Shown here one piece after another: positions 18,084 to 62,111 of a DNA stretch of 64,000 nucleotides; the stretch's first letter is position 1; each line of letters starts with the position of its first letter. This stretch comes from Variovorax paradoxus (GTDB taxonomy: Bacteria; Pseudomonadota; Gammaproteobacteria; Burkholderiales; Burkholderiaceae_C), in contig NZ_JAUSXG010000001.1 of assembly GCF_030815855.1 (NCBI RefSeq), forward strand, positions 1,302,001 to 1,366,000, in the 5' to 3' direction. The position numbers and the translations under genes are program-made. The notes under the pieces were generated by a model, which saw nothing but the letters and a program-made list of their open reading frames with translations, was not told the origin of the DNA and ran no database searches.

Positions 18084-18347
18084 CGTTCGGGGCGCGTGCA
18101 CAGGCCACCGGGTACTCCCCTCCGCGAATGTCCCCCGGCTTCGCCTCCTCCTTGATTTCGCTGCGGGGAGCACCCGATGCCCTGTGCACTGGGGCACGCT
18201 GCTGGTGTACGGCTGATCAACTCCCGCTCTTTGCAACGCTCCCGCTGATGGGGTGCCTTGCGCAGCGAAATCAAGGAGGAGGCCGCAGGCCGGGGGACAT
18301 TCGCGGAACAAGGTACCCCGTCGGCGGGAGCGCCGCCCCGAACAGCG
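18084..18347. repeat. two-hairpin dispersed repeat, copy A
   Basis: Fills the 342-bp gap between the phosphoesterase and CorA-like genes. Hairpin 1 spans 18096-18189 (outer arms GTGCACAGG and CCTGTGCAC) with a TTCG tip. Hairpin 2 spans 18237-18332 (outer arms CGCTCCCG and CGGGAGCG) with a GGCC-GCA-GGCC tip. They are separated by 47 nt. The same core, TCCGCGAATGTCCCCCGG and its complement, is in both arms. Near-copies exist at 43437-43690 (same orientation) and 56098-56350 (reversed). Short flanking sequences are inverted (TTCGGGGCGC at left, GCCCCGAACA at right). No gene seen inside. Confidence 0.9.
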
Positions 18348-18360
18348 CACCCACGCAAGA

Positions 18361-43350: not shown

Positions 43351-43436
43351 GGCTTGGGTGTTCCTTGGAGTCTGATCATGCGGGCTGCCTTGCGTTCTTG
43401 GCGCTGTTGTCCGTAGCGCTGTTGCTCAGGGCGCTG

Positions 43437-43690
43437 TTGTTCAGGGCGCGTGCACAGGCCACCGGGTACTCCCCTCCGCGAATGTCCCCCGGCCTGCGGC
43501 CTCCTCCTTGATTTCGCTGCGGGGAGCACCCGATGCCCTGTGCACACTGGGCGCTGCACTTGTTCCGCGCGATCAACGACCGCTCTGAACAACGCTCCCG
43601 TCGATGGGGTGCCTTGCGCAGCGAAATCAAGGGGGAGGCCGCAGGCCGGAGGACATTCGCGGAGCAAGGTACCCCGTCGGCGGGAGTGCC
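43437..43690. repeat. two-hairpin dispersed repeat, copy B
   Basis: Occupies most of the 386-bp gap between glpR and glpK. Hairpin 1 is 43450-43545, hairpin 2 is 43592-43689, and the spacer between them is about 47 nt. Both tips read GGCC-TGC/GCA-GGCC. Same orientation as copy A. The left end is TTGTTCAGGGCGC (43437-43449), whose complement ends copy C. The left flank (43391-43436) additionally carries short tandem GCGCTGTTG-like units. No gene is recognisable here. Confidence 0.9.
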
Positions 43691-43736
43691 CCCCGAATGC
43701 CTTCTAGCACGGCAAACAAAATGACAAGCCCTCATC

Positions 43737-52569: not shown

Positions 52570-53550
52570 GTGACCTCAAGCCTTCCCAGCCCCGCCGCGC
52601 GCATCAAACGTGTCCTGGTGATTCACTATTCCCAGACCGGCCAGCTCGGCAGCGTCGCCGAGCAGATCGTTGCGCCGCTCAAGGCCGATCCGGGAATTTC
52701 CGTGCACGTCGAAACGCTGCGTCCGCAGGCGGATTTTCCGTTTCCCTGGCCGTTCCTGACCTTCTTCGACGCCTTCCCCGAGTCGGCGCACATGAAGCCG
52801 CCGCCGCTCGCAGCGCTCTCGCTCACGGGCGACGAGCACTTCGACCTCGTCATCCTGCCGTACCAGGTGTGGTTCCTGGCGCCGTCGCAGCCGATCGTCG
52901 CCTTCCTGAAGCATCCGCTGGCGAGCCATCTGCTCCGGGGCAAGCCGGTGGTGACCGTGATCGCCTGCCGCAACATGTGGCTGCTGGCGCACGAAAAGCT
53001 CAAGGGCCTGCTCGACGCGGTGGGCGCGCGCCTGATCGACAACGTGGTGCTGACCGACCCGGGGCCGACACTGGCCACCTTCTTCACTACGCCGGCCTGG
53101 CTGATCTGGGGCCGCAAGCGCGGTTTCTGGGGCATGCCCGACGCCGGCCTCAGCGCCGGTCAGATTCGGGGTGCCGGCCGCTTCGGCCATGCATTGCGCG
53201 ACGCGCTCCACAACGACCTCGAGCGCGGCTCAGAGCCGCTGCTCGCGGGGCTAGGTGCCGTTCAGGCCGACGCAAAGCTCCTGATCAGCGAAAAGGCCGG
53301 CACCCGCAGCTTCTATCTCTGGGGCAATTTGATCATGGCGGCGGGCCGGCCGGGCGCCTGGCCGCGCAAGCCACTGCTGCTGCTTTATGTGGTCTTCCTC
53401 CTCGTGCTCATTGTCACGGTCGTGCCCGTGAGCTTGACTCTCCAGGCGCTGCTGCGACCGTTATTCAAGGGGTGGCTGACTAAAATGACAGCTCATTTCG
53501 AGCGCCCGTCGGGCTCGGCCACGGACCGCTCCCCCCTCTATGACGACTGA
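52570..53550 (+). CDS. flavodoxin-fold protein related to dialkylresorcinol-condensing enzyme DarA
   Basis: A 326-aa protein; I place the start at GTG 52570 because the earlier sequence overlaps the glp terminator region and is not protein-like. It opens RVLVIHYSQTGQLGSVAEQI, a flavodoxin-like phosphate loop, then DLVILPYQVWFLAPSQP and GKPVVTVIACRNMWLLAHE. One membrane helix lies near the C-terminus (LLLLYVVFLLVLIVTVVPV), so it is membrane-anchored. Proteins like this are annotated as the DarA-type cyclase/condensing enzyme beside DarB in resorcinol clusters. Its end overlaps the next synthase gene by 11 nt. Confidence 0.68.
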   Translation: MTSSLPSPAARIKRVLVIHYSQTGQLGSVAEQIVAPLKADPGISVHVETLRPQADFPFPWPFLTFFDAFPESAHMKPPPLAALSLTGDEHFDLVILPYQVWFLAPSQPIVAFLKHPLASHLLRGKPVVTVIACRNMWLLAHEKLKGLLDAVGARLIDNVVLTDPGPTLATFFTTPAWLIWGRKRGFWGMPDAGLSAGQIRGAGRFGHALRDALHNDLERGSEPLLAGLGAVQADAKLLISEKAGTRSFYLWGNLIMAAGRPGAWPRKPLLLLYVVFLLVLIVTVVPVSLTLQALLRPLFKGWLTKMTAHFERPSGSATDRSPLYDD

Positions 53551-54676
53551 TGTCTTCCTGACCCGCACTGCCGCCTTTCTGCCCTTTTCCCCGGTCAGCA
53601 ATGAAGACATCGAAGACGTTCTCGGCCGCATCGGCGGCAAGGCGTCGCGCGCGCGGCGGCTGATTCTTCGCAGCAACGGCATCCAGTCACGCCACTACGC
53701 CATCGACCGGGCCACCGGCCAGCTCGCCATGAGCAATGCGCAGCTCACCGCCTCGGCCATCCGGGCGCTGGGCGACGACATCGGTCCGGTGGATTGCCTT
53801 GTCACCGGCACGTCGCTGCCCGACCAGCTGATGCCCAACCACGCGGTGATGGTGCACGGCGAGCTCGGCTGGCCCCGGCTCGAGGTGGTGGCTTGCGCGG
53901 GCATCTGCCTGGCGGGCACCACGGCGCTCAAGCACGCCTGGCTCTCCGTGCGCGCGGGCGACGCGCGCCGCGCGGTGGCCACCGGCTCCGAGCTGGCCTC
54001 GGCCGTGATGCGCGGCTCCCGCTTCGAGGCCGAACTCGAGCACAAGCTAAAGGCGCTCGAGGAGCGGCCCGAAATCGCTTTCGAAAAAGACTTTCTGCGC
54101 TGGATGCTCTCCGACGGCGCCGGCGCCGTGCTGCTCGAGCGCGAACCGCGCGGCCCGCTGTCGCTGCGCGTGGAATGGATCGACCTGTCTTCCGCCGCCC
54201 ACGAGCTGCCGGTGTGCATGTATGCGGGCGCCGACAAGAACGCCGAAGGCGGGCTGGATGGCTGGGCACGCACCGCACCCGAAGACTGGCAGCGCGACTC
54301 GACCTTCGCCGTCAAGCAGGACGTGCGCCTGCTCAACGAGAACATCGTTCGCGCCACGCTGGGCGAGCCGCTCGCGGCCATTGTCGAGAAGCGGGCCCTG
54401 AAGGCGGCCGATGTCGACTGGTTCCTGCCGCACCTCTCGTCCAGCTATTTCATTGAACCCGTGAGCCAGTGCCTCGAAGCCATGGGTTTTGCAATTCCGC
54501 GCGAGCGCTGGTTCAGCAATCTGGCGACCAAGGGCAACACCGGCTCGGCATCGCCCTACATCATGCTCGACGAACTGTTCCGTTCGGGCCGCATCAAGCC
54601 CGGCCAGAAGCTGCTGATGTTCGTGCCCGAAAGCGGCCGCTTCTCCAGCGGCTTCATTTACATGGAGGCCGTATAG
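53540..54676 (+). CDS. KAS III-type beta-ketoacyl synthase, DarB-like
   Basis: A 378-aa thiolase-fold synthase with the KAS III triad: Cys123 (ICLAGTTAL), His298 (WFLPHLSSSYF) and Asn333 (KGNTGSASP). It is longer than FabH and resembles DarB-type ketosynthases that join two acyl/ketoacyl chains, the step before resorcinol ring closure. The overlapping DarA-like gene upstream supports that reading, but no product can be deduced. Directly followed (2 nt) by the small conserved gene. Confidence 0.8.
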   Translation: MTTDVFLTRTAAFLPFSPVSNEDIEDVLGRIGGKASRARRLILRSNGIQSRHYAIDRATGQLAMSNAQLTASAIRALGDDIGPVDCLVTGTSLPDQLMPNHAVMVHGELGWPRLEVVACAGICLAGTTALKHAWLSVRAGDARRAVATGSELASAVMRGSRFEAELEHKLKALEERPEIAFEKDFLRWMLSDGAGAVLLEREPRGPLSLRVEWIDLSSAAHELPVCMYAGADKNAEGGLDGWARTAPEDWQRDSTFAVKQDVRLLNENIVRATLGEPLAAIVEKRALKAADVDWFLPHLSSSYFIEPVSQCLEAMGFAIPRERWFSNLATKGNTGSASPYIMLDELFRSGRIKPGQKLLMFVPESGRFSSGFIYMEAV

Positions 54677-54678
54677 CC

Positions 54679-55074
54679 ATGGATCTCGACGCCGTTCCGC
54701 AAGAAGGCAATGCCACCCTCGATGGCCATGCCAAGCTCATGTACGCGCGCGATGCGCAGGGCCGCGTCGTCACTACCCGGTCGCGCGGCTGGGAGGCGGA
54801 AGAAATCGTCACCAGCCATGCGGTCGATGTGCTCGTCGAGCAGGCAAAAGCCGCCCGGGAGCGCGTGGCCCGGGGGCTGGCGTCGCCGCTCGAATACTGG
54901 ATGTACGAGCGCCGTATGGACGTGGCGCTGCTCTCCCAGACCAGCGGTTTCTGGCAGTGGCGCGTGCGGCGTCATCTGCAGCCGAAGCACTTCGCGGCGC
55001 TGCCCGAGAAGCACCTGGCGCGCTATTCGGAGGCGCTGGGCCTGCCCGTTTCCACCTTGCAAGGCCTGCCGTGA
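54679..55074 (+). CDS. small conserved protein of the lipid cluster (131 aa)
   Basis: A soluble protein starting MDLDAVPQEGNATLDGHAKLMYARD. It has an acidic N-terminus, a helical middle (VDVLVEQAKAARERVARGLAS) and the aromatic stretch FWQWRVRRHLQPKHF. No family or active site is recognised. It lies 2 nt after the DarB-like gene and its stop overlaps the BtrH-like start (GTGA), so it belongs to the same transcript; a role as a small partner of the ketosynthase or acyltransferase is only a guess. Confidence 0.7.
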   Translation: MDLDAVPQEGNATLDGHAKLMYARDAQGRVVTTRSRGWEAEEIVTSHAVDVLVEQAKAARERVARGLASPLEYWMYERRMDVALLSQTSGFWQWRVRRHLQPKHFAALPEKHLARYSEALGLPVSTLQGLP

Positions 55075-56051
55075 AATTCGAACACCAACAAGCGGCGCAC
55101 TGCGAAAGCGGCGTCATCTCGAACCTGATGCGCCACCACGGCGTGCCGATGACCGAGAGCATGGCGCTCGGCCTGTCGTCGGCGCTGTCGTTCGCCTACC
55201 TGCCGTTCATCAAGCTTTCCGGCCTGCCGCTCATCTCGTACCGCATGCCGCCCAAGGCCATCATCAAGGGCCTGTTGGCACCGATGGCCGCACGTTTCCG
55301 CTTCGAGACCTTTCGCAGCCCCGAGGCCGGCGCACAGCGCCTGGATGCGTTGCTGGCCGACGGACAGCTCGTGGGGTTGCAGACCTCGGTCTATTGGCTG
55401 CCGTACTTTCCGCCCAACATGCGCTTTCACTTCAACGCGCACAACCTCCTGGTCTACGGCAAGGACGGCGACGACTACCTGATCAGCGACCCGGTGTTCG
55501 AAGAGCCGGTGCGCTGCGCCAGCGCCGACCTCTCACGCGCACGTTTCGCCAAGGGCGTGCTCGCGCCCAAAGGTCTCATGTACTACCCGCAGGCCATCGA
55601 GCGCAAGACGGTCGACGCGGCGTCGGTGACGAAGGCCATCCGCAAGACGGTGCGCAACATGCTCGCGCCCGTTCCCATCGTCGGCGTGCGCGGCATGCGC
55701 ATGCTGGCCAATCGCATGCAAAAGCTCTCGCCGAGCGATCCGCGCAGCGTCGACTTCATTGGCCATGTGGTGCGCATGCAGGAAGAAATCGGTACCGGCG
55801 GGGCGGGGTTCCGTTTCATCTATGCCGGCTTTCTGCAGGAGGCGGCACAGTTGCTCGACAAACCGCAGCTGCAGCAGATGTCCGAACGGCTCATCGTCAT
55901 CGGCGACGGCTGGCGCGCTTTCGCACTCAAGGCAGCGCGCATGGTGAAGGGGCGCGAGCCGGTCGACCCGGCCGCTCTGGCCGATCGTCTACGTGAACAG
56001 GCGCAACAGGAAGAGGCCTTCTTTCGCGACCTGAAGGCTGCTGTTGCCTGA
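55071..56051 (+). CDS. BtrH-like cysteine acyltransferase/peptidase (BtrH N-terminal + DUF4872 type)
   Basis: A 326-aa protein starting at GTG 55071, overlapping the upstream stop. The opening KFEHQQAAHCESGVISNLM has a Cys (residue 11) at the place of the catalytic Cys in BtrH. BtrH transfers an acyl-aminoacyl group from an acyl carrier protein to an aminoglycoside in butirosin synthesis. Later motifs FHFNAHNLLVYGKDGDDYLISDP give the expected His and Asp, and a DUF4872-like C-terminal half follows. With an ACP in the same cluster, an acyl-ACP-dependent transfer is plausible. The acceptor is unknown. Confidence 0.75.
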   Translation: MKFEHQQAAHCESGVISNLMRHHGVPMTESMALGLSSALSFAYLPFIKLSGLPLISYRMPPKAIIKGLLAPMAARFRFETFRSPEAGAQRLDALLADGQLVGLQTSVYWLPYFPPNMRFHFNAHNLLVYGKDGDDYLISDPVFEEPVRCASADLSRARFAKGVLAPKGLMYYPQAIERKTVDAASVTKAIRKTVRNMLAPVPIVGVRGMRMLANRMQKLSPSDPRSVDFIGHVVRMQEEIGTGGAGFRFIYAGFLQEAAQLLDKPQLQQMSERLIVIGDGWRAFALKAARMVKGREPVDPAALADRLREQAQQEEAFFRDLKAAVA

Positions 56052-56097
56052 GATGGACCCTCGCTTTTCTGTTCGTAGCGGCGTGCTTGAAGTGCGT

Positions 56098-56350
56098 TGT
56101 TCAGGGCGCACTCCCGCCGACGGGGTACCTTGCTCCGCGAATGTCCCCCGGCCTGCGGCCTCCTCCTTGATTTCGCTGCGCAAGGCACCCCGCCAGCGCG
56201 AGCGTTGCAAAGAGCAGTCGTTGATCAGCGGTGCACCCAGAGCGTGCCCTGGTGCACAGGGCATCGGGTGCTCCCCGCAGCGAAATAAAGGAGGAGGGCG
56301 AAGCCCGGGGGACATTCGCGGAGGGGAGTACCCGGTGGCCTTTGCACAAG
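56098..56350. repeat. two-hairpin dispersed repeat, copy C (reverse orientation)
   Basis: Fills most of the 351-bp gap inside the lipid-cluster operon. Read from the complementary strand it matches copies A and B: hairpin 1 spans 56252-56347 with a GGGC-TTCG-CCC tip, hairpin 2 spans 56109-56204 with a GGCC-TGC-GGCC tip, and the spacer is 47 nt. The left end is TTGTTCAGGGCGC (56098-56110), the same 13-mer that borders copy B at its opposite end. Not coding; adjacent operon genes are otherwise overlapping or a few nt apart. Confidence 0.9.
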
Positions 56351-56402
56351 CCCTGGAACGGCAGCGCCCCAAACAACAGCGCCCTCAACGAGCAACAGCC
56401 AC

Positions 56403-57311
56403 ATGCTCGAACTGAAGAACCTCAGCTACCGCTACCCGCATGCAGGCGCACCCGCGTTGGCCGAAGTCTCGCTCGCGGTCCCCAGGGGTTCGGTGATGGG
56501 CTTGCTCGGCCCCAACGGCGCAGGCAAGACCACGCTGATCTCGCACTTGTCGGGTGCGCTGGCAGTGCAGTCGGGCGAGATCCACGTTGACGGCCAGCCG
56601 CTGCAGCAGGTCCGTGCAAAAACGCCAACCCGCATCGCCGTCGCCCCGCAGGACCAGGCCTTCTACCCCATGCTCACGGTGGCCGAGAACCTCGCGTGCT
56701 TTGCAGCGGCCGGGGGGCTTTCTGGCGCACGCAAGAAGGTGCGCATCGAAGCCTGCACCCGCTTTTCGCAGCTTGAACAGTTCGCGGGCGTGCGCGCCGA
56801 GCGGCTTTCGGGTGGCCTGAAACGCCGATTGAACCTCGCGATTGCGCTGTTGCCCGAACCCGAGCTGATGCTGTTCGACGAGCCCACGGTTGGCGTCGAT
56901 CCGCAATCGCGCGCCTTCATTCTCGACGCCATCAAGAGCCTGGCAGAGCAGGGGGCAGCCGTGATCTATGCCTCGCACTACATGGAAGAGATCGAGGCCA
57001 TCGCCGACCGGGTTGCCATTCTCGACCATGGCCGCGTATTGCGCGAAGGCTCGCTCGAAGAGTTGCTGTCGAAGAGCGCGATGCTGTTGACGTTGGCGGC
57101 CGATGGGCTCGATGAGGCGATGCTCTCGCGCTTCGGCACGGTGGAGCCGGGCGGCGTGCATTGGCGCGTTCACTTGCGCGAAGGCACCGGCCCCGGTCCG
57201 GCGCTGGCAACGCTCGAGGCCGAAGGCATCGACGTGCGCCACGCGGAGTTCGGCCGCCACGACCTGGAGCAGCTCTTCATGGCGCTCACCCACCGCTCCT
57301 TGCGCGACTGA
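56403..57311 (+). CDS. ABC-2 type exporter ATPase
   Basis: A 302-aa ATPase of the exporter (drug/polysaccharide) class: Walker A GPNGAGKTT, a late Q-loop, signature LSGGLKRRLNLAIALL, Walker B LMLFDEPTVGVDP and H-loop YASHYMEEIEAIADRV. A C-terminal extension of ~75 residues (REGSLEELLSKSAML...) is typical of the family. It starts directly after repeat copy C and is 7 nt from its permease gene. Presumably exports or flips the lipid or polyketide product. Confidence 0.92.
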   Translation: MLELKNLSYRYPHAGAPALAEVSLAVPRGSVMGLLGPNGAGKTTLISHLSGALAVQSGEIHVDGQPLQQVRAKTPTRIAVAPQDQAFYPMLTVAENLACFAAAGGLSGARKKVRIEACTRFSQLEQFAGVRAERLSGGLKRRLNLAIALLPEPELMLFDEPTVGVDPQSRAFILDAIKSLAEQGAAVIYASHYMEEIEAIADRVAILDHGRVLREGSLEELLSKSAMLLTLAADGLDEAMLSRFGTVEPGGVHWRVHLREGTGPGPALATLEAEGIDVRHAEFGRHDLEQLFMALTHRSLRD

Positions 57312-57318
57312 ACACCAC

Positions 57319-58476
57319 ATGCTCTTTGCGCTCATCAAAAAGGAACTGCTGGCACTCGTGCGCGACATGCACGGGCTGGCCGCGCTGTTCCTGATGCCGA
57401 TGGTCTTCATCGTGCTGATGTCGCTCACGCTCAAGGACATCTACCGCCCGCCGTTGGCCGAACTGAGCTATGCCGTCGACATGCGCGATACCGAGACGCC
57501 GGCGCAATGGTTGCAGCAGATCTGGCAACGCAGCCACGGGGCGCCCAAGACGCTCGATGCCGATTGGCAGGCCCAGTTGCGCAGCGGCGCGCTCAAGTAC
57601 GTCATCGTGCTGGAGCCGGGCCTCTCGGCGGAACTCGAATCGGCCGCGCTCTCGACCCAGGCGCACATTCGGCTGCTGACCGAGCCGGGCATCGACGCCA
57701 ACCTGTTCAACGCCCTGCGTGCCGAACTCGTCGGTGCCTCCGGCGAGCTGAAGGCCCGGCTGGCGCTGGCGGTGCCCGGCACGTCCGGTCCGCCGCCGGG
57801 CGCATCGATCCAGGCGCTGGTGAATGCCGAGCGCTATTCCACCGCGGGGCCGCGGCCCACTTCGGTGCAGCAGAACGTGCCGGCATGGCTGGTGTTCGGC
57901 ATGTTCTTCGTGGTTGCGTCGCTCTCGAGCCTGTTCGTGCAGGAGCGCAGCTCGGGCGCGCTGGGCCGGCTGCGCAGCCTGGGGGTGTCGCGCTTCATGC
58001 TGCTGATGTCCAAGGCCTTGCCTTACCTCGGTGTCAACGCGCTGCAGGCCGTTCTGATGCTCGCTGCCGGCATCTGGCTGATGCCCCTGATCGGCGGCGA
58101 TGCGCTCTCGCTTGCCGGCATTCATTGGGGTGCGCTGGTCCTCGCGCTCGCGGCCGTGAGCCTGGCCGCGGTGAGCTTGTCGCTCGCGCTGGCCTGCGCC
58201 GTGCGCAGCCATGCGCAGGCCGCGACCATCGGGCCGATGGTCAACGTGCTCATGGCGGCGGCGGGCGGCATCATGGTGCCGAAGTTCGTCATGCCGGGCT
58301 TCATGCAGCGGCTGGTCGAAATATCGCCGATGAACTGGGGGCTGGAGGCGCTGCTGACTGTGCTGCTGCGCGGCGGCGGCGTGGCCGACACCTTGCCGCA
58401 GGTCGGCCGCCTCGTGGTGTTTGCGGCCGCCATGTTTCTGCTCGCCGTCTTCTTGTTTCGCAGGCCCGCACCGTGA
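57319..58476 (+). CDS. ABC-2 type exporter permease
   Basis: A 385-aa membrane protein with an N-terminal helix (ALFLMPMVFIVLMSLTL), a ~150-residue extracytoplasmic loop and five C-terminal helices, including FGMFFVVASLSSLFVQERSSGALGRLRSLGVSRF and the NVLMAAAGGIMVPKFVMP signature of ABC-2 permeases. Pairs with the preceding ATPase. Its stop overlaps the ACP start codon (GTGA), indicating coupled synthesis of transporter and carrier protein. Confidence 0.9.
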   Translation: MLFALIKKELLALVRDMHGLAALFLMPMVFIVLMSLTLKDIYRPPLAELSYAVDMRDTETPAQWLQQIWQRSHGAPKTLDADWQAQLRSGALKYVIVLEPGLSAELESAALSTQAHIRLLTEPGIDANLFNALRAELVGASGELKARLALAVPGTSGPPPGASIQALVNAERYSTAGPRPTSVQQNVPAWLVFGMFFVVASLSSLFVQERSSGALGRLRSLGVSRFMLLMSKALPYLGVNALQAVLMLAAGIWLMPLIGGDALSLAGIHWGALVLALAAVSLAAVSLSLALACAVRSHAQAATIGPMVNVLMAAAGGIMVPKFVMPGFMQRLVEISPMNWGLEALLTVLLRGGGVADTLPQVGRLVVFAAAMFLLAVFLFRRPAP

Positions 58477-58757
58477 CCGATCATTCCGTTTCCGCCGAAT
58501 TCATCGCCAGCCTGAAGGCCATGGTGCTCGAGGCCGTTGAAAAAGAGGCGCCTCCGGGCGGCCTCGGCGACGACGAGCCGCTGTTCGGCCCGGAAGCCCG
58601 GCTCGACCTCGACTCGCTCGACGCGCTGCAGGTATCGATGACGATCCAGCAGCGCTTCGGCGTGCGCATGCCCGACAGCAAGGAAACGCGCCGCGCGCTC
58701 ACTTCGGTCGCCCACCTGGCGAACCACCTTGTGCAGGCGGGCAAGGCGAGTCAATGA
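58473..58757 (+). CDS. acyl carrier protein
   Basis: A 94-aa carrier protein starting at GTG 58473. The phosphopantetheine site is LDLDSLDALQ, with Ser48, in the usual position after an acidic loop (DDEPLFGPEARL); helices II-III (VSMTIQQRFGVRMPD, RRALTSVAHLANHL) follow. Overlaps the permease upstream and the ketosynthase downstream by 4 nt each, so it serves this cluster rather than housekeeping fatty acid synthesis. Confidence 0.9.
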   Translation: MTDHSVSAEFIASLKAMVLEAVEKEAPPGGLGDDEPLFGPEARLDLDSLDALQVSMTIQQRFGVRMPDSKETRRALTSVAHLANHLVQAGKASQ

Positions 58758-59830
58758 TGGGTGAGGGCGAGTATCTTGCCGGCATGGGCCTGGCCTGCGC
58801 GCTCGGCAACGATCTTTCATCTTCCGTGGCCGCACTTGCGCGCGGCGGTGTACGGCCCACGACGGTGGCGGTCTCGGAAAGCGTGCAGTGGCCCGTCTAC
58901 ACGCTGCCGCCGCAGGAGGGCAGCTGGACCGAGCGCCTGGAGCGCACCGTACGGAGCGTGGCAGCGCAGGCGGGTGAGGGAGCGGGGCGTTCATGCCCGC
59001 TGTTCGTTGCATCGTCTTCGCTGGACATCGGCCACATGGAGCACGAGGTGCAGGACCTGCGCCTGGGCGGCGATCTTCAGGACTTTGCAGGTCATGTGGC
59101 CGCCGCCCTCGACTGGCAGGGGCCGGTCTTCACCATCTCGACGGCCTGTACCTCGGCGCTCAACGCCGTGCTCGCGGGCTGCGATCTCATTCGAAGCGGG
59201 GAAGCCGACGAGGTCCTGGTGATCGGCGCCGAACTGGGCAACCGCTTCACGGTGGCCGGCTTCGGCGCCATGCAATTGCTGTCGCCTGACGGTGCGCAGC
59301 CTTTCGGCGCCGGGCGCAACGGGCTGGTGCTCGGGGAGGCGGTGGCCGCATTGCGCCTCAGCTCGCGCCCTGGGCGCTGGCGCATCGCGGGCGGTTCCAA
59401 TGTGGTCGACGGGCGCAATCCATCGGGCACCGAAGCCAGCGCAGTGGTTGCCATGTGCCATGAAGCATTGGCGCAGAGCGGCCTGGGCGCGCAGGACATC
59501 GACCTGATCAAGGTGCAGGCCGCGGGCAGTCCGGTCAACGATGCGATAGAGGCAAAGGCGCTGAAGCAGGTCTTCGACGCGCCGCCGCCGCTGGTGTCGC
59601 TCAAGTCGCTGATCGGGCACACGCTGGGAGCGTCGGGGGCTGCCGAGCTGGCTTTGCTGGTCGCCTGCATCGAAGCCGGGGCATGGCCTTCGGCCGGCTA
59701 TGCCATCGACGATGAGCTCGGCATTGCATTGAGCACGCAGGCACCCGCGAGGCTTCGCAACGTGCTGCTCAACGTGGTGGGGTTCGGCGGCGGGCACACG
59801 TCGCTGGTGCTGCAGGATTGCGGTGCATGA
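58754..59830 (+). CDS. beta-ketoacyl synthase-like protein lacking the first catalytic His
   Basis: A 358-aa thiolase-fold protein with the nucleophile Cys132 (STACTSALNAV) and the Lys/His motif SLKSLIGHTLGASGAAEL (Lys284, His289). The first His motif, HGTGTxxND in FabF-type enzymes, is replaced by QAAGSPVND (about 255-263): the His is Ala257 and two residues are missing. It may therefore not decarboxylate malonyl-ACP, or may act as a transfer or chain-length partner. It is shorter than FabF (~410 aa) at the N-terminus. Its start overlaps the ACP gene. Confidence 0.8.
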   Translation: MMGEGEYLAGMGLACALGNDLSSSVAALARGGVRPTTVAVSESVQWPVYTLPPQEGSWTERLERTVRSVAAQAGEGAGRSCPLFVASSSLDIGHMEHEVQDLRLGGDLQDFAGHVAAALDWQGPVFTISTACTSALNAVLAGCDLIRSGEADEVLVIGAELGNRFTVAGFGAMQLLSPDGAQPFGAGRNGLVLGEAVAALRLSSRPGRWRIAGGSNVVDGRNPSGTEASAVVAMCHEALAQSGLGAQDIDLIKVQAAGSPVNDAIEAKALKQVFDAPPPLVSLKSLIGHTLGASGAAELALLVACIEAGAWPSAGYAIDDELGIALSTQAPARLRNVLLNVVGFGGGHTSLVLQDCGA

Positions 59831-59852
59831 GCGCCGCGGCAAGGAGTAGCCA

Positions 59853-60356
59853 TTGAATACCGGGGCCGCCGAGGCATGGCGCACCGTCGCCCACTTCACG
59901 GCCGATCCGCTGCCCGCGGATTGGCGCGATCAGCTGGCGCACCGGCTCGGCCGCCGGCCGCGACGTGTGGGCCTGTGGACCGAGCTTGCCATGTACGGGG
60001 CACGCCGCTGTCTCGACGAGGCGGGCGAGGCGGCTTTGCCGGCTGGCGCCCGGCTGCGCGTGTCGAGCATGCGGGGCGCCTGGGGCGCGACGCATGCGGG
60101 CCTGGCACAGCTCGATGCGGGCGCGTTGATGCCGTTCACCTTCATGCAGAGCCAGCCCGCGCTGATGCTGGCGGAGGTCGGCCGTTGCCTTGAATGGCAA
60201 GGCGACGCGAGCTTTGCGCTCTCGCGCGATCCGCAGCAGCTGCTGCGGCTTTCACGAGCCGGCGCTGGAAGTGCCGGCTTGCTGGTAGGCGTGGTGGAAG
60301 AAGAGCGCAACGGCGAGAGGCCGCGCTCCGAATGGTGGCGGCTGGTGCCGGCCTAA
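59853..60356 (+). CDS. half-size ketosynthase-like protein (167 aa)
   Basis: Starts at TTG 59853 with AAGGAG 6 nt upstream. It resembles the N-terminal portion of a thiolase-fold ketosynthase: LRVSSMRGAWGATHAGLAQL looks like the strand and helix before the active-site Cys, and LMPFTFMQSQPALMLAEVGRCLEWQGDAS like the dimer-interface region. No nucleophile Cys or His motif is present and the second half is missing. This fits short chain-length-factor-like or Ketoacyl-synt_2-type proteins of aryl-polyene-like clusters; the resemblance is by eye only. Last gene of the cluster; its stop overlaps the convergent gene by 4 nt. Confidence 0.6.
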   Translation: MNTGAAEAWRTVAHFTADPLPADWRDQLAHRLGRRPRRVGLWTELAMYGARRCLDEAGEAALPAGARLRVSSMRGAWGATHAGLAQLDAGALMPFTFMQSQPALMLAEVGRCLEWQGDASFALSRDPQQLLRLSRAGAGSAGLLVGVVEEERNGERPRSEWWRLVPA

Positions 60357-61015
60357 GCAGCGCAGTCTCGTGCGCGGGGCGGCTGGATCAAGTTCGTTGC
60401 CGCGATCGATCGAACCAGGTTGGCGCGAGCTTGTGCCTCGAGCAGCGCATGCATTCGCGGCGTGGTGTAGATCGCCTCTCGCGACAGGAAGCGCTGCAGG
60501 ATCACGCGGCGGCGCGGCAAGCGGATTTCGTCGGGCACGAAGGCGTACTCGGCGTGCACCTGCCGCTCATACTCATCGAAGCGCGCGCGGTCTGCCCCGA
60601 GGATCGACAGGTCGATGTCAATCAGCAGTTCGGCGTCGCGGCCCTCGGGGACGGCATCGTGCCGCGTGGCCATGACCAGCGCATGCACGCGCTCGGCCGC
60701 TTCTGCCTGTGCGCCACGCTCAAGCATCGCGCTGCGCGCCCAATCGGCACTGCGGGCCTCGTTGTCGTGCGCATGCACGTCGTAGATGGCGTCGTGAAAC
60801 CACAGCGCAAGCGCCACCTCGCCGGGGCGCTCGGCGAGTGATTTTTCGCGCTCGAACCATGAGAGGCATTCGCCCAGGTGCTGCAGGGTGTGATAGTGGC
60901 GCTGCGGCTCGCAGTAGCGGTGCTGCAGTTCAATGCACAGCGCTTCGTCTGCGCCGGCCACACCCACCGCACGCCAGGCGGCGTTCCAGTTGGCCAGCAG
61001 CGCCTCGGGTGTCAC
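60353..61015 (-). CDS. predicted HD-superfamily metal-dependent phosphohydrolase
   Basis: A 220-aa protein; GTG 61015 lies 4 nt after the stop of the upstream lytic transglycosylase gene, so I prefer it to the frame's earlier codons, which would overlap that gene. The pattern RHYHTLQHLGECL (His40, His42, His46) and LWFHDAIYDV (His-Asp at 74-75), with a later acidic DIDLSILG, matches the small HD-type family (COG4339-like, often mis-labelled as an NMDA receptor subunit). The substrate is unknown. Confidence 0.78.
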   Translation of the reverse strand: MTPEALLANWNAAWRAVGVAGADEALCIELQHRYCEPQRHYHTLQHLGECLSWFEREKSLAERPGEVALALWFHDAIYDVHAHDNEARSADWARSAMLERGAQAEAAERVHALVMATRHDAVPEGRDAELLIDIDLSILGADRARFDEYERQVHAEYAFVPDEIRLPRRRVILQRFLSREAIYTTPRMHALLEAQARANLVRSIAATNLIQPPRARDCAA

Positions 61016-61019
61016 GAGG

Positions 61020-62111
61020 CTATTGCTCCATGGCAGCCTTGACCTCCTGGCCAAGGTCGAGCACCGACATCGCGTAATAGCTGCTCCAGTTGTAGCGCGT
61101 GATCACGTAGAAGTTGCGCGTGCCGGCCACATAGGTCGGCGGTGCGTCGGCGCCGTTTTGCAGTTCGACCAGCGCGAGCAGGCCCTTGTGACGCAGGCCA
61201 TCGCCCTCGGGTACCGCGCCGGCCGCCACGAAGCTGTCGGTGCTGAAGGTCGGGAGGATGTCGGGTGCGAGAAGCAGCGGCTTCTTGAGACGTTCCTCTT
61301 CGAAATGCACCGGGTAGATGGCCGGCATGCCGGGCGTCCATCCGAAGGCCTTGAAGTAGCTGGCCACAGAGCCGATCACGTCGGCGGTGTTGTCGACCAG
61401 GTCGATGCGGTTGTCGCCGTCGAAGTCGACTGCGTACTTGGCAATGCTGCTCGGCATGAACTGCGGCATGCCCATGGCGCCCGCGTAGCTGCCTACGGGC
61501 ACCAGCGGATTCTCTGAGGTGCGGCTCTCGGTGCTCAGGAAGCTCTCGAGCTCGCCGCGGAAGAAGGCTTCGCGCTCGGCCGCGCGCGGGTGGCCCTGCG
61601 GGAAGTCGAACGCCAGCGTGGCCAACGCGTCGATCACGCGGAAGTTGCCCATGTTGCGGCCGTAGATGGTCTCCACGCCCACGATGCCCACGATGATTTC
61701 CGGCGGCACGCCGTACACCTCTTCAGCCCGTGCGAGCGTCTCGGCGTTGTTGCGCCAGAAGCGCACCCCCGCGGCAATGCGTGTCGCATCGATGAAGCGG
61801 CTGCGATAGGCCTGCCAGTTTTTGACCGAGCCCACGGGGCCCGGCAGCATCAGGCGCGGCACGTTCGGCAGGAAGCGGGCGCTGCCGATGGTGGCGCGCA
61901 CCCAGGCGCGGTCGAGGCCGCGGCGCTCGGCCACCTCGTCGGCAAAGCGCATGGCATCGTCGCGCGTGGCGTAGGGTGTGCTGCCTGCCACGGTCTTAAC
62001 GCTGCGGGCGCCAGACGCTTTCTGGGCTTGCGCCCCTGTGGACCAAACGCAGCAGGCGGCCAGCAGGGCAAGGGAGGCGGCGCGGAAGGGCGCAGGAAAA
62101 AAAGATCGCAT
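61020..62111 (-). CDS. mltB: lytic murein transglycosylase B (MltB family)
   Basis: A 363-aa peptidoglycan lytic transglycosylase with an N-terminal signal peptide (SLALLAACCVWSTGAQAQ; the Cys pair is not followed by a good lipobox). It has catalytic Glu147 in GVETIYGRNMG, SYAGAMGMPQFMPSS and DFDGDNRIDL, all family signatures. Cleaves glycan strands with 1,6-anhydro products in the periplasm. Its stop leads by 4 nt into the HD gene. Confidence 0.9.
   Translation of the reverse strand: MRSFFPAPFRAASLALLAACCVWSTGAQAQKASGARSVKTVAGSTPYATRDDAMRFADEVAERRGLDRAWVRATIGSARFLPNVPRLMLPGPVGSVKNWQAYRSRFIDATRIAAGVRFWRNNAETLARAEEVYGVPPEIIVGIVGVETIYGRNMGNFRVIDALATLAFDFPQGHPRAAEREAFFRGELESFLSTESRTSENPLVPVGSYAGAMGMPQFMPSSIAKYAVDFDGDNRIDLVDNTADVIGSVASYFKAFGWTPGMPAIYPVHFEEERLKKPLLLAPDILPTFSTDSFVAAGAVPEGDGLRHKGLLALVELQNGADAPPTYVAGTRNFYVITRYNWSSYYAMSVLDLGQEVKAAMEQ

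Follow-up and report, generated by a model that had tools for sequence, protein, structure and literature searches.

A dialkylresorcinol (dar) gene cluster in Variovorax paradoxus and DarE as a candidate ester-forming enzyme

A set of nine open reading frames (ORFs) was analysed in Variovorax paradoxus (NCBI RefSeq assembly GCF_030815855.1, contig NZ_JAUSXG010000001.1). The genome is a single contig (C1) of 5,951,079 bases, and the window, which is the whole stretch of 64,000 nucleotides analysed, corresponds to C1:1302001-1366000. All nine genes lie on the plus strand between window positions 52570 and 60356 (Table 1). Four of the eight junctions overlap, three are gaps of 2, 7, and 22 nt, and darE and darF are separated by 351 nt. 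An earlier reading of these letters (the sequence-only reading) had seen a single-strand set, which is real, but had counted eight genes instead of nine. The gene letters used here follow PMC3949708; the NCBIfam names DarG and DarH correspond to darD and darE, respectively. The window proteins were scanned against Pfam and NCBIfam. The order darA-B-D-E-F-I-C-J-K on one strand is that of an arcuflavin-type dar cluster, with darA and darK recognized by position. The set is almost certainly the known dar (dialkylresorcinol, DAR) cluster of Variovorax.

Table 1. Genes and intergenic element of the dar cluster (window positions; family matches from Pfam and NCBIfam)
Feature	Position	Strand	Description	Family match
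darA	52570..53550	+	DAR aromatase (name from position and conservation); ORF	
darB	53540..54676	+	StlD/DarB-family KAS III-like ketosynthase (DAR cyclase)	NF005293
darD	54679..55074	+	DAR accessory protein of 131 aa; weak helix-turn-helix likeness in C-terminal half	NF053536
darE	55071..56051	+	BtrH-like acyltransferase, proposed ester synthase	NF053550, PF14399, PF16169
dispersed inverted-repeat element	56052..56402	.	between darE and darF	
darF	56403..57311	+	ABC transporter ATPase	PF00005, 108.7 bits
darI	57319..58476	+	ABC-2 permease	PF12698, 97.9 bits
darC	58473..58757	+	acyl carrier protein	PF00550, 26.0 bits (cut-off 20.8)
darJ	58754..59830	+	ketosynthase, Cys-Gln-His instead of Cys-His-His	PF00109, PF02801
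darK	59853..60356	+	half ketosynthase, chain-length-factor-like, probable DarJ partner	

Among described systems, the closest is the dar cluster found in Azoarcus sp. BH72, for which PMC3949708 (Table 1) gives the genes from azo0293 to azo0283 as darA, B, D, E, F, G, H, I, C, J, and K. In that table darD is labelled as a conserved hypothetical protein, darE as a BtrH-like peptidase, darF as an ABC ATPase, darI as a permease, darC as an acyl carrier protein (ACP), darJ as a ketosynthase, and darK as a hypothetical protein. The same nine genes occur in the same order in both species, as judged by the annotation table and not by sequence, and the Azoarcus polyene (arc) loci also lie elsewhere in its genome. 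Two differences were found. The Azoarcus cluster carries a prevent-host-death/PilT pair (its darG and darH) between darF and darI; the window has no such pair, its darF-darI gap being 7 nt, and this pair is an accessory, non-defining feature. Conversely, the window has a dispersed repeat between darE and darF, unlike the Azoarcus cluster. According to PMC3949708, the Azoarcus product arcuflavin is a polyene joined to a DAR, with the linkage predicted to be an ester. The same paper, in its text and in the legend to Figure 2, describes xanthomonadin-like and DAR clusters combined in three V. paradoxus strains, S110 among them; the pathway pair and the genus are those of the present system.

Given this gene-for-gene match to Table 1 of PMC3949708, the cluster was already known, and a new kind of cluster was rejected as an explanation. 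The sequence-only reading had considered the combination unusual. This view was not sustained: the published table covers the set, named NCBIfam models exist for the 131-aa and BtrH-like proteins, the set is common around darE loci, and the Azoarcus cluster provides just the match to a characterized pathway that would undo a claim of novelty. The value of the locus is thus narrow: a DAR-linked, ACP-type cysteine transferase is suggested for the ester step, and the odd ketosynthases are suggested to be a ketosynthase/chain-length-factor (KS-CLF) pair. What is still of interest is the coupling step, namely which enzyme joins the polyene and the resorcinol. Polyene-resorcinol esters were long used as a Bacteroidetes marker (PMC3949708, PMC3992019), and few secondary metabolites of Gram-negative bacteria are described as being as widespread as aryl polyenes (PMC8358021).

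Conservation of the cluster was analysed in 55 darE loci from named genomes; the alignment rows given below include the window gene and some duplicates, and distinct sequences are counted separately. The gene-neighbourhood search that had been suggested for checking the set found darB and darD within 3 kb upstream of darE, on the same strand, in 55/55 loci, an order far beyond chance. The darA gene was found beside darB in 51 loci; three of the other four (L038, L046, and L060) start at a contig end with darB, and L067 gave no match. Matches to darF were found in 54/55 loci, or 52 after removal of L016 and L063, whose matches (29-32% identity) lie outside the cluster. The darI, darC, and darJ genes are on the darE strand in 47, 46, and 46 of the 55 loci, respectively, and all three together in 46. 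In L051, L060, L062, L065, and L066, all titled as Gammaproteobacteria or members of that class, darF-I-C-J lie on the strand opposite to darA-B-D-E; hence the cluster behaves as two modules, darABDE and darFICJ. The closest DarE proteins among named genomes (97% identity) are those of Variovorax sp. OV700 and V. paradoxus ISL-81. For the genus Variovorax, such a set is nothing unusual.

DarB scored 591.6 bits with NF005293 (cut-off 450). Its residues C123, H298, and N333, which had been named correctly from the sequence, are invariant across 80 aligned rows (72 distinct sequences). The exception-level model NF053539 (resorcinol_DarB) gave 465.4 bits, under its cut-off of 550, so DarB was filed as a member of the StlD/DarB family only. 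DarA had no Pfam match, and its best NCBIfam hit was a flavodoxin with an E value of 0.13. DarD scored 165.5 bits with NF053536 (cut-off 70) and 121.1 bits with the flexirubin DarG model NF053545, under its cut-off of 170. When PDB sequences were searched with a DarD profile, nothing came up (best E 0.34); the C-terminal half of DarD may weakly resemble a Cro/C1-type helix-turn-helix. The same genome also encodes a second StlD/DarB-like ketosynthase inside a 647-aa protein (313.5 bits, under cut-off; L112:7211-9154, G000:C1:2127211-2129154). It lies a few genes away from a phospholipase D/cardiolipin-synthase-like gene, and open frames of 635 and 645 aa resembling it occur in two other genomes (G019 and G224).

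The carrier and ketosynthase genes were compared with the related loci, and the ketosynthases also with solved structures. The residues D47 and S48 of DarC are invariant in 51 rows, and L49 is nearly so. DarJ retains Cys132 and His289, and has QAAGSP at the first His site, where ArcK has HGTAS. The loss of one His noted in the sequence-only reading is borne out, since Gln replaces the first His, and DarJ lacks the Cys-His-His set of an elongating ketosynthase. Among the DarJ orthologues, the first His site holds Gln in 43 of 51 loci and His in the other eight. The nearest solved chain to DarJ is 6qsp_A (E 1.3e-31). DarK (167 aa) has no significant Pfam or NCBIfam family; its structure model has a confident fold, nearest to ApeC. 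As modelled, DarK has an N-terminal ketosynthase fold and its gene adjoins the KS gene, as would be expected for an ApeC-like chain-length factor. This similarity suggests that the odd ketosynthases probably form one KS-CLF pair, DarJ plus DarK. In ApeO-ApeC (6qsp, 7f28; PMC8358021), whose chains are the nearest to DarJ and DarK, respectively, and in AmcF-AmcG of cispentacin (PMC10698177), a KS gene likewise adjoins a KS-like partner gene. Unlike ApeO-ApeC, DarJ has Gln for the first His, DarK is a 167-aa half, and the DarJ-DarK complex is putative. Matches to DarK were found by tblastn in 39/55 loci, some of them weak; of the 16 loci without a match, L016, L028, L045, and L063 end before the gene, and in the others it may be diverged, cut off, or absent. 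In view of these matches and the confident fold, the idea that darK is a broken gene was rejected.

The polyene KS and ACP families were then used to search the same genome, and two arc loci were identified, both unlinked to the dar locus. The first (L068, C1:2722001-2740000) has its genes between 5.2 and 17.5 kb along its length. It contains an FkbO/Hyg5-type (XanB2-type) chorismatase, an AMP-ligase carrying a FabA domain, a family 2 glycosyltransferase, a ketoreductase-type short-chain dehydrogenase, a methyltransferase, a polysaccharide deacetylase, and an ACP (NF006617, 127 bits). Two acyltransferase-type genes are present, one matching PF01553 (L068:6251-7258) and one with weak matches under cut-offs (L068:13846-14847). 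A probable hotdog dehydratase (L068:8749-9216) was recognized by eye only, with no Pfam or NCBIfam match. Also encoded there are an 800-aa protein that weakly matches RND transporters, a LolA-like protein, and a 214-aa protein without a family. The second locus (L009/L010, at C1:5.075 Mb) contains an arcK-type KS (511 bits), a CLF-like gene, a halogenase-like flavoprotein, and a two-component pair. The partner arc genes (chorismatase, AMP-ligase, KS, CLF, ketoreductase, dehydratase, and ACP) are therefore all in the same genome, and they match the arc gene list of PMC3949708 in kind. The activities of ArcB and ArcT were demonstrated for Azoarcus (PMC3949708).

Co-occurrence was examined in 274 genomes of the class, taken in a single draw, with only scores over the family cut-offs counted. 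A DarE-like match in G138 (126 bits), G013 (103 bits), and G101 (23 bits), and DarB and KS matches under their cut-offs, including DarB in G077 (413 bits), were thus left out of the counts. The polyene KS was found in 62 of the 274 genomes, DarB in 16, and DarE in 13. All 16 DarB genomes have the polyene KS (Fisher p 8.9e-12, with shared descent ignored), and all 13 DarE genomes have the KS and a darB within 2 kb (DarE-KS Fisher p 1.4e-9, likewise). DarE was detected over cut-off in 0/46 genomes with the polyene KS but without DarB. In the three DarB genomes without DarE (G221, G198, and G104, which are 82, 96, and 85% complete), darA and darB are present, but the other seven dar genes were not found in the surrounding 17.7-20 kb.

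These counts bear on whether the cluster simply produces free dialkylresorcinols for export, to serve as signals or antimicrobials, independently of the polyene genes. Such a pathway is very improbable, although some observations would agree with it: C. pinensis darA and darB give DAR in a heterologous host (PMC3992019), three of the 16 DarB genomes have only these two genes of the set, one control genome has DarB without a polyene KS over cut-off, and the arc loci are not linked to dar here. However, the polyene KS is present in all 16 DarB genomes, and at least three arc-type genes lie within 10 kb of darE in 3/55 loci (L051, L062, and L067; nine arc queries). In Azoarcus extracts, PMC3949708 reports that DAR was undetectable and that the DAR-polyene pigment was found instead. 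The separate free-resorcinol pathway was rejected as the leading explanation on the 16/16 count, the one control genome being contrary. In this soil bacterium the dar cluster is very probably part of an arcuflavin/flexirubin-like pigment pathway, and its product is likely to be an arcuflavin-like polyene-DAR ester, with the resorcinol attached to a yellow polyene.

In this pigment pathway, DarB would join two fatty-acid-type intermediates and DarA would aromatize the product to a 2,5-dialkylresorcinol, as published for relatives. The arc genes would build an aryl polyene from 3-hydroxybenzoate (3-HBA) on an ACP. DarE, a transferase of the papain/C39 kind, would most likely take the ACP-bound polyene on Cys11 and esterify one of the resorcinol's phenolic hydroxyls with it. 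DarF-DarI may move the pigment towards the envelope. The sequence-only reading had pictured a resorcinol-type chain, a BtrH-like transfer, and export, which are upheld or still plausible, and had left the acceptor generic. The arc genes make it concrete: we propose the polyene as the acyl group, with the resorcinol accepting it. The place of DarJ-DarK can be suggested with low confidence only. As a KS-CLF with DarC, the pair may build a DarC-bound chain, or may move an acyl chain without elongation; the second option is considered because the first catalytic His is lost here and in most related loci.

DarE scored 491.7 bits with NF053550 ("BtrH-related acyltransferase"; cut-off 300), and also matched the Pfam families BtrH_N (PF14399) and DUF4872 (PF16169). 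The residues C11, H124, and D140 are invariant in 75 rows (67 distinct), as is H120; by analogy with the C39-like family, C11/H124/D140 may form the catalytic triad. No meaningful match to DarE was found among PDB sequences (best E 0.33). The plasmid search gave 57 records, all under 60% identity, and the protein search gave 7962 matches among 8000 scored candidates, the best 120 of which were listed. BtrH of butirosin shares BtrH_N with DarE, which has DUF4872 in addition, and an ACP gene is found in the same cluster. The acceptor of BtrH is an aminoglycoside amine; for DarE the proposed acceptor differs, being a phenol hydroxyl (giving an ester), and the proposed acyl group is an aryl polyene. 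BtrH_N is described in PMC10318531 as part of an ACP:aminoglycoside acyltransferase.

Because C. pinensis darA and darB yield DAR by themselves, ring formation can do without DarE. On its family, its residues, its co-occurrence with DarB and the polyene KS, and the lack of an evident spare ligase, DarE is proposed as the ester synthase joining the polyene and the resorcinol, and we give this proposal about an even chance. No published assignment of DarE as the ester enzyme was found in searches of an open-access library or in PMC3949708 and PMC3992019, and the NCBIfam family name already says acyltransferase. A fuller version, in which DarE is the ester synthase and DarJ-DarK, acting as a shuttle with no elongation, loads DarC with the polyene, seems rather unlikely.

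Several points weigh against the pigment pathway proposed above and the role of DarE in it. Among 14 control genomes, DarB was found over cut-off in one, with no DarE match and no KS over cut-off in any; DarB can therefore be present where DarE and that KS model are missing. The estimate for DarE was slightly lowered for this reason, from a little better than even. If that control genome is a producer of DAR esters, DarE is not the general ester enzyme. The co-occurrence would fit any member of the dar operon, such as DarD, as well as DarE. Bacteroidetes flexirubins carry the same ester, and the genome count here covers one class. DarA was assigned by position, with no significant family match, and the product is predicted here from the genes. 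The eight DarJ loci that keep the first His (L041, which is Variovorax, L044, L046, L060, L062, L065, L066, and L067; HAAGS in three, HGT in four, and HGVG in one) mean that a non-elongating DarJ cannot be general. Finally, the ester could be made by one of the two acyltransferase-type genes in the arc locus.

The arc-locus acyltransferase-type genes are the main rivals to DarE as the ester enzyme. A phospholipid-type acyltransferase from this locus would then make the DAR ester and DarE would use another acceptor, which we regard as unlikely. Both genes do lie in L068, but according to PMC3949708 a phospholipid/glycerol acyltransferase is conserved in polyene clusters, and the xanthomonadin cluster has an acyltransferase although xanthomonadins have no DAR part. 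Such genes thus do not track the resorcinol, whereas DarE does.

The ester might also be made by a ligase-like enzyme. The flexirubin pathway of Chitinophaga pinensis and Flavobacterium johnsoniae has darA, darB, polyene machinery, and the polyene-DAR ester in common with the system proposed here, although its ring is tyrosine-derived, as opposed to the chorismate-derived 3-HBA here, and its coupling was assigned, as a guess, to the ligase-like FlxW (PMC3992019). DarE would then act elsewhere, for example by releasing a stalled chain from DarC; in favour of this, BtrH_N is closely related to the C39 and C70 peptidase families (PMC10318531). This explanation is quite unlikely. The Azoarcus gene table in PMC3949708 lists one AMP-ligase, ArcT, which is active on 3-HBA, and one AMP-ligase was found among the arc-locus ORFs scanned in the present genome. 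As the sole listed AMP-ligase serves the starter in Azoarcus, there is no evident FlxW-like candidate in these loci. Moreover, an enzyme acting on the polyene only would be expected in KS-positive, DarB-negative genomes, and DarE was over its cut-off in none of the 46.

The 351-nt spacer between darE and darF contains an inverted repeat with arms of 71 nt (56120-56190 and 56266-56336), which are 82% complementary. The element is about 285 bp long. With 40 of 68 candidates scored, it was found at at least 35 places of at least 250 bases in the same genome, this copy included, with 84-100% identity. The darE-darF spacer was measured in 46 relatives: it is -1 to 23 nt in 29, 76-93 nt in six, and 310-362 nt in 11, all of which are Variovorax. 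The short spacer in most relatives suggests that the tight operon came first, and the element was likely inserted into it later. Further copies lie in the window at 18090-18350 and 43416-43697.

Downstream of the cluster, a 233-aa gene on the minus strand (window 60353-61054) is convergent with darK; its product appears HD-domain-like by eye, with no Pfam or NCBIfam match.

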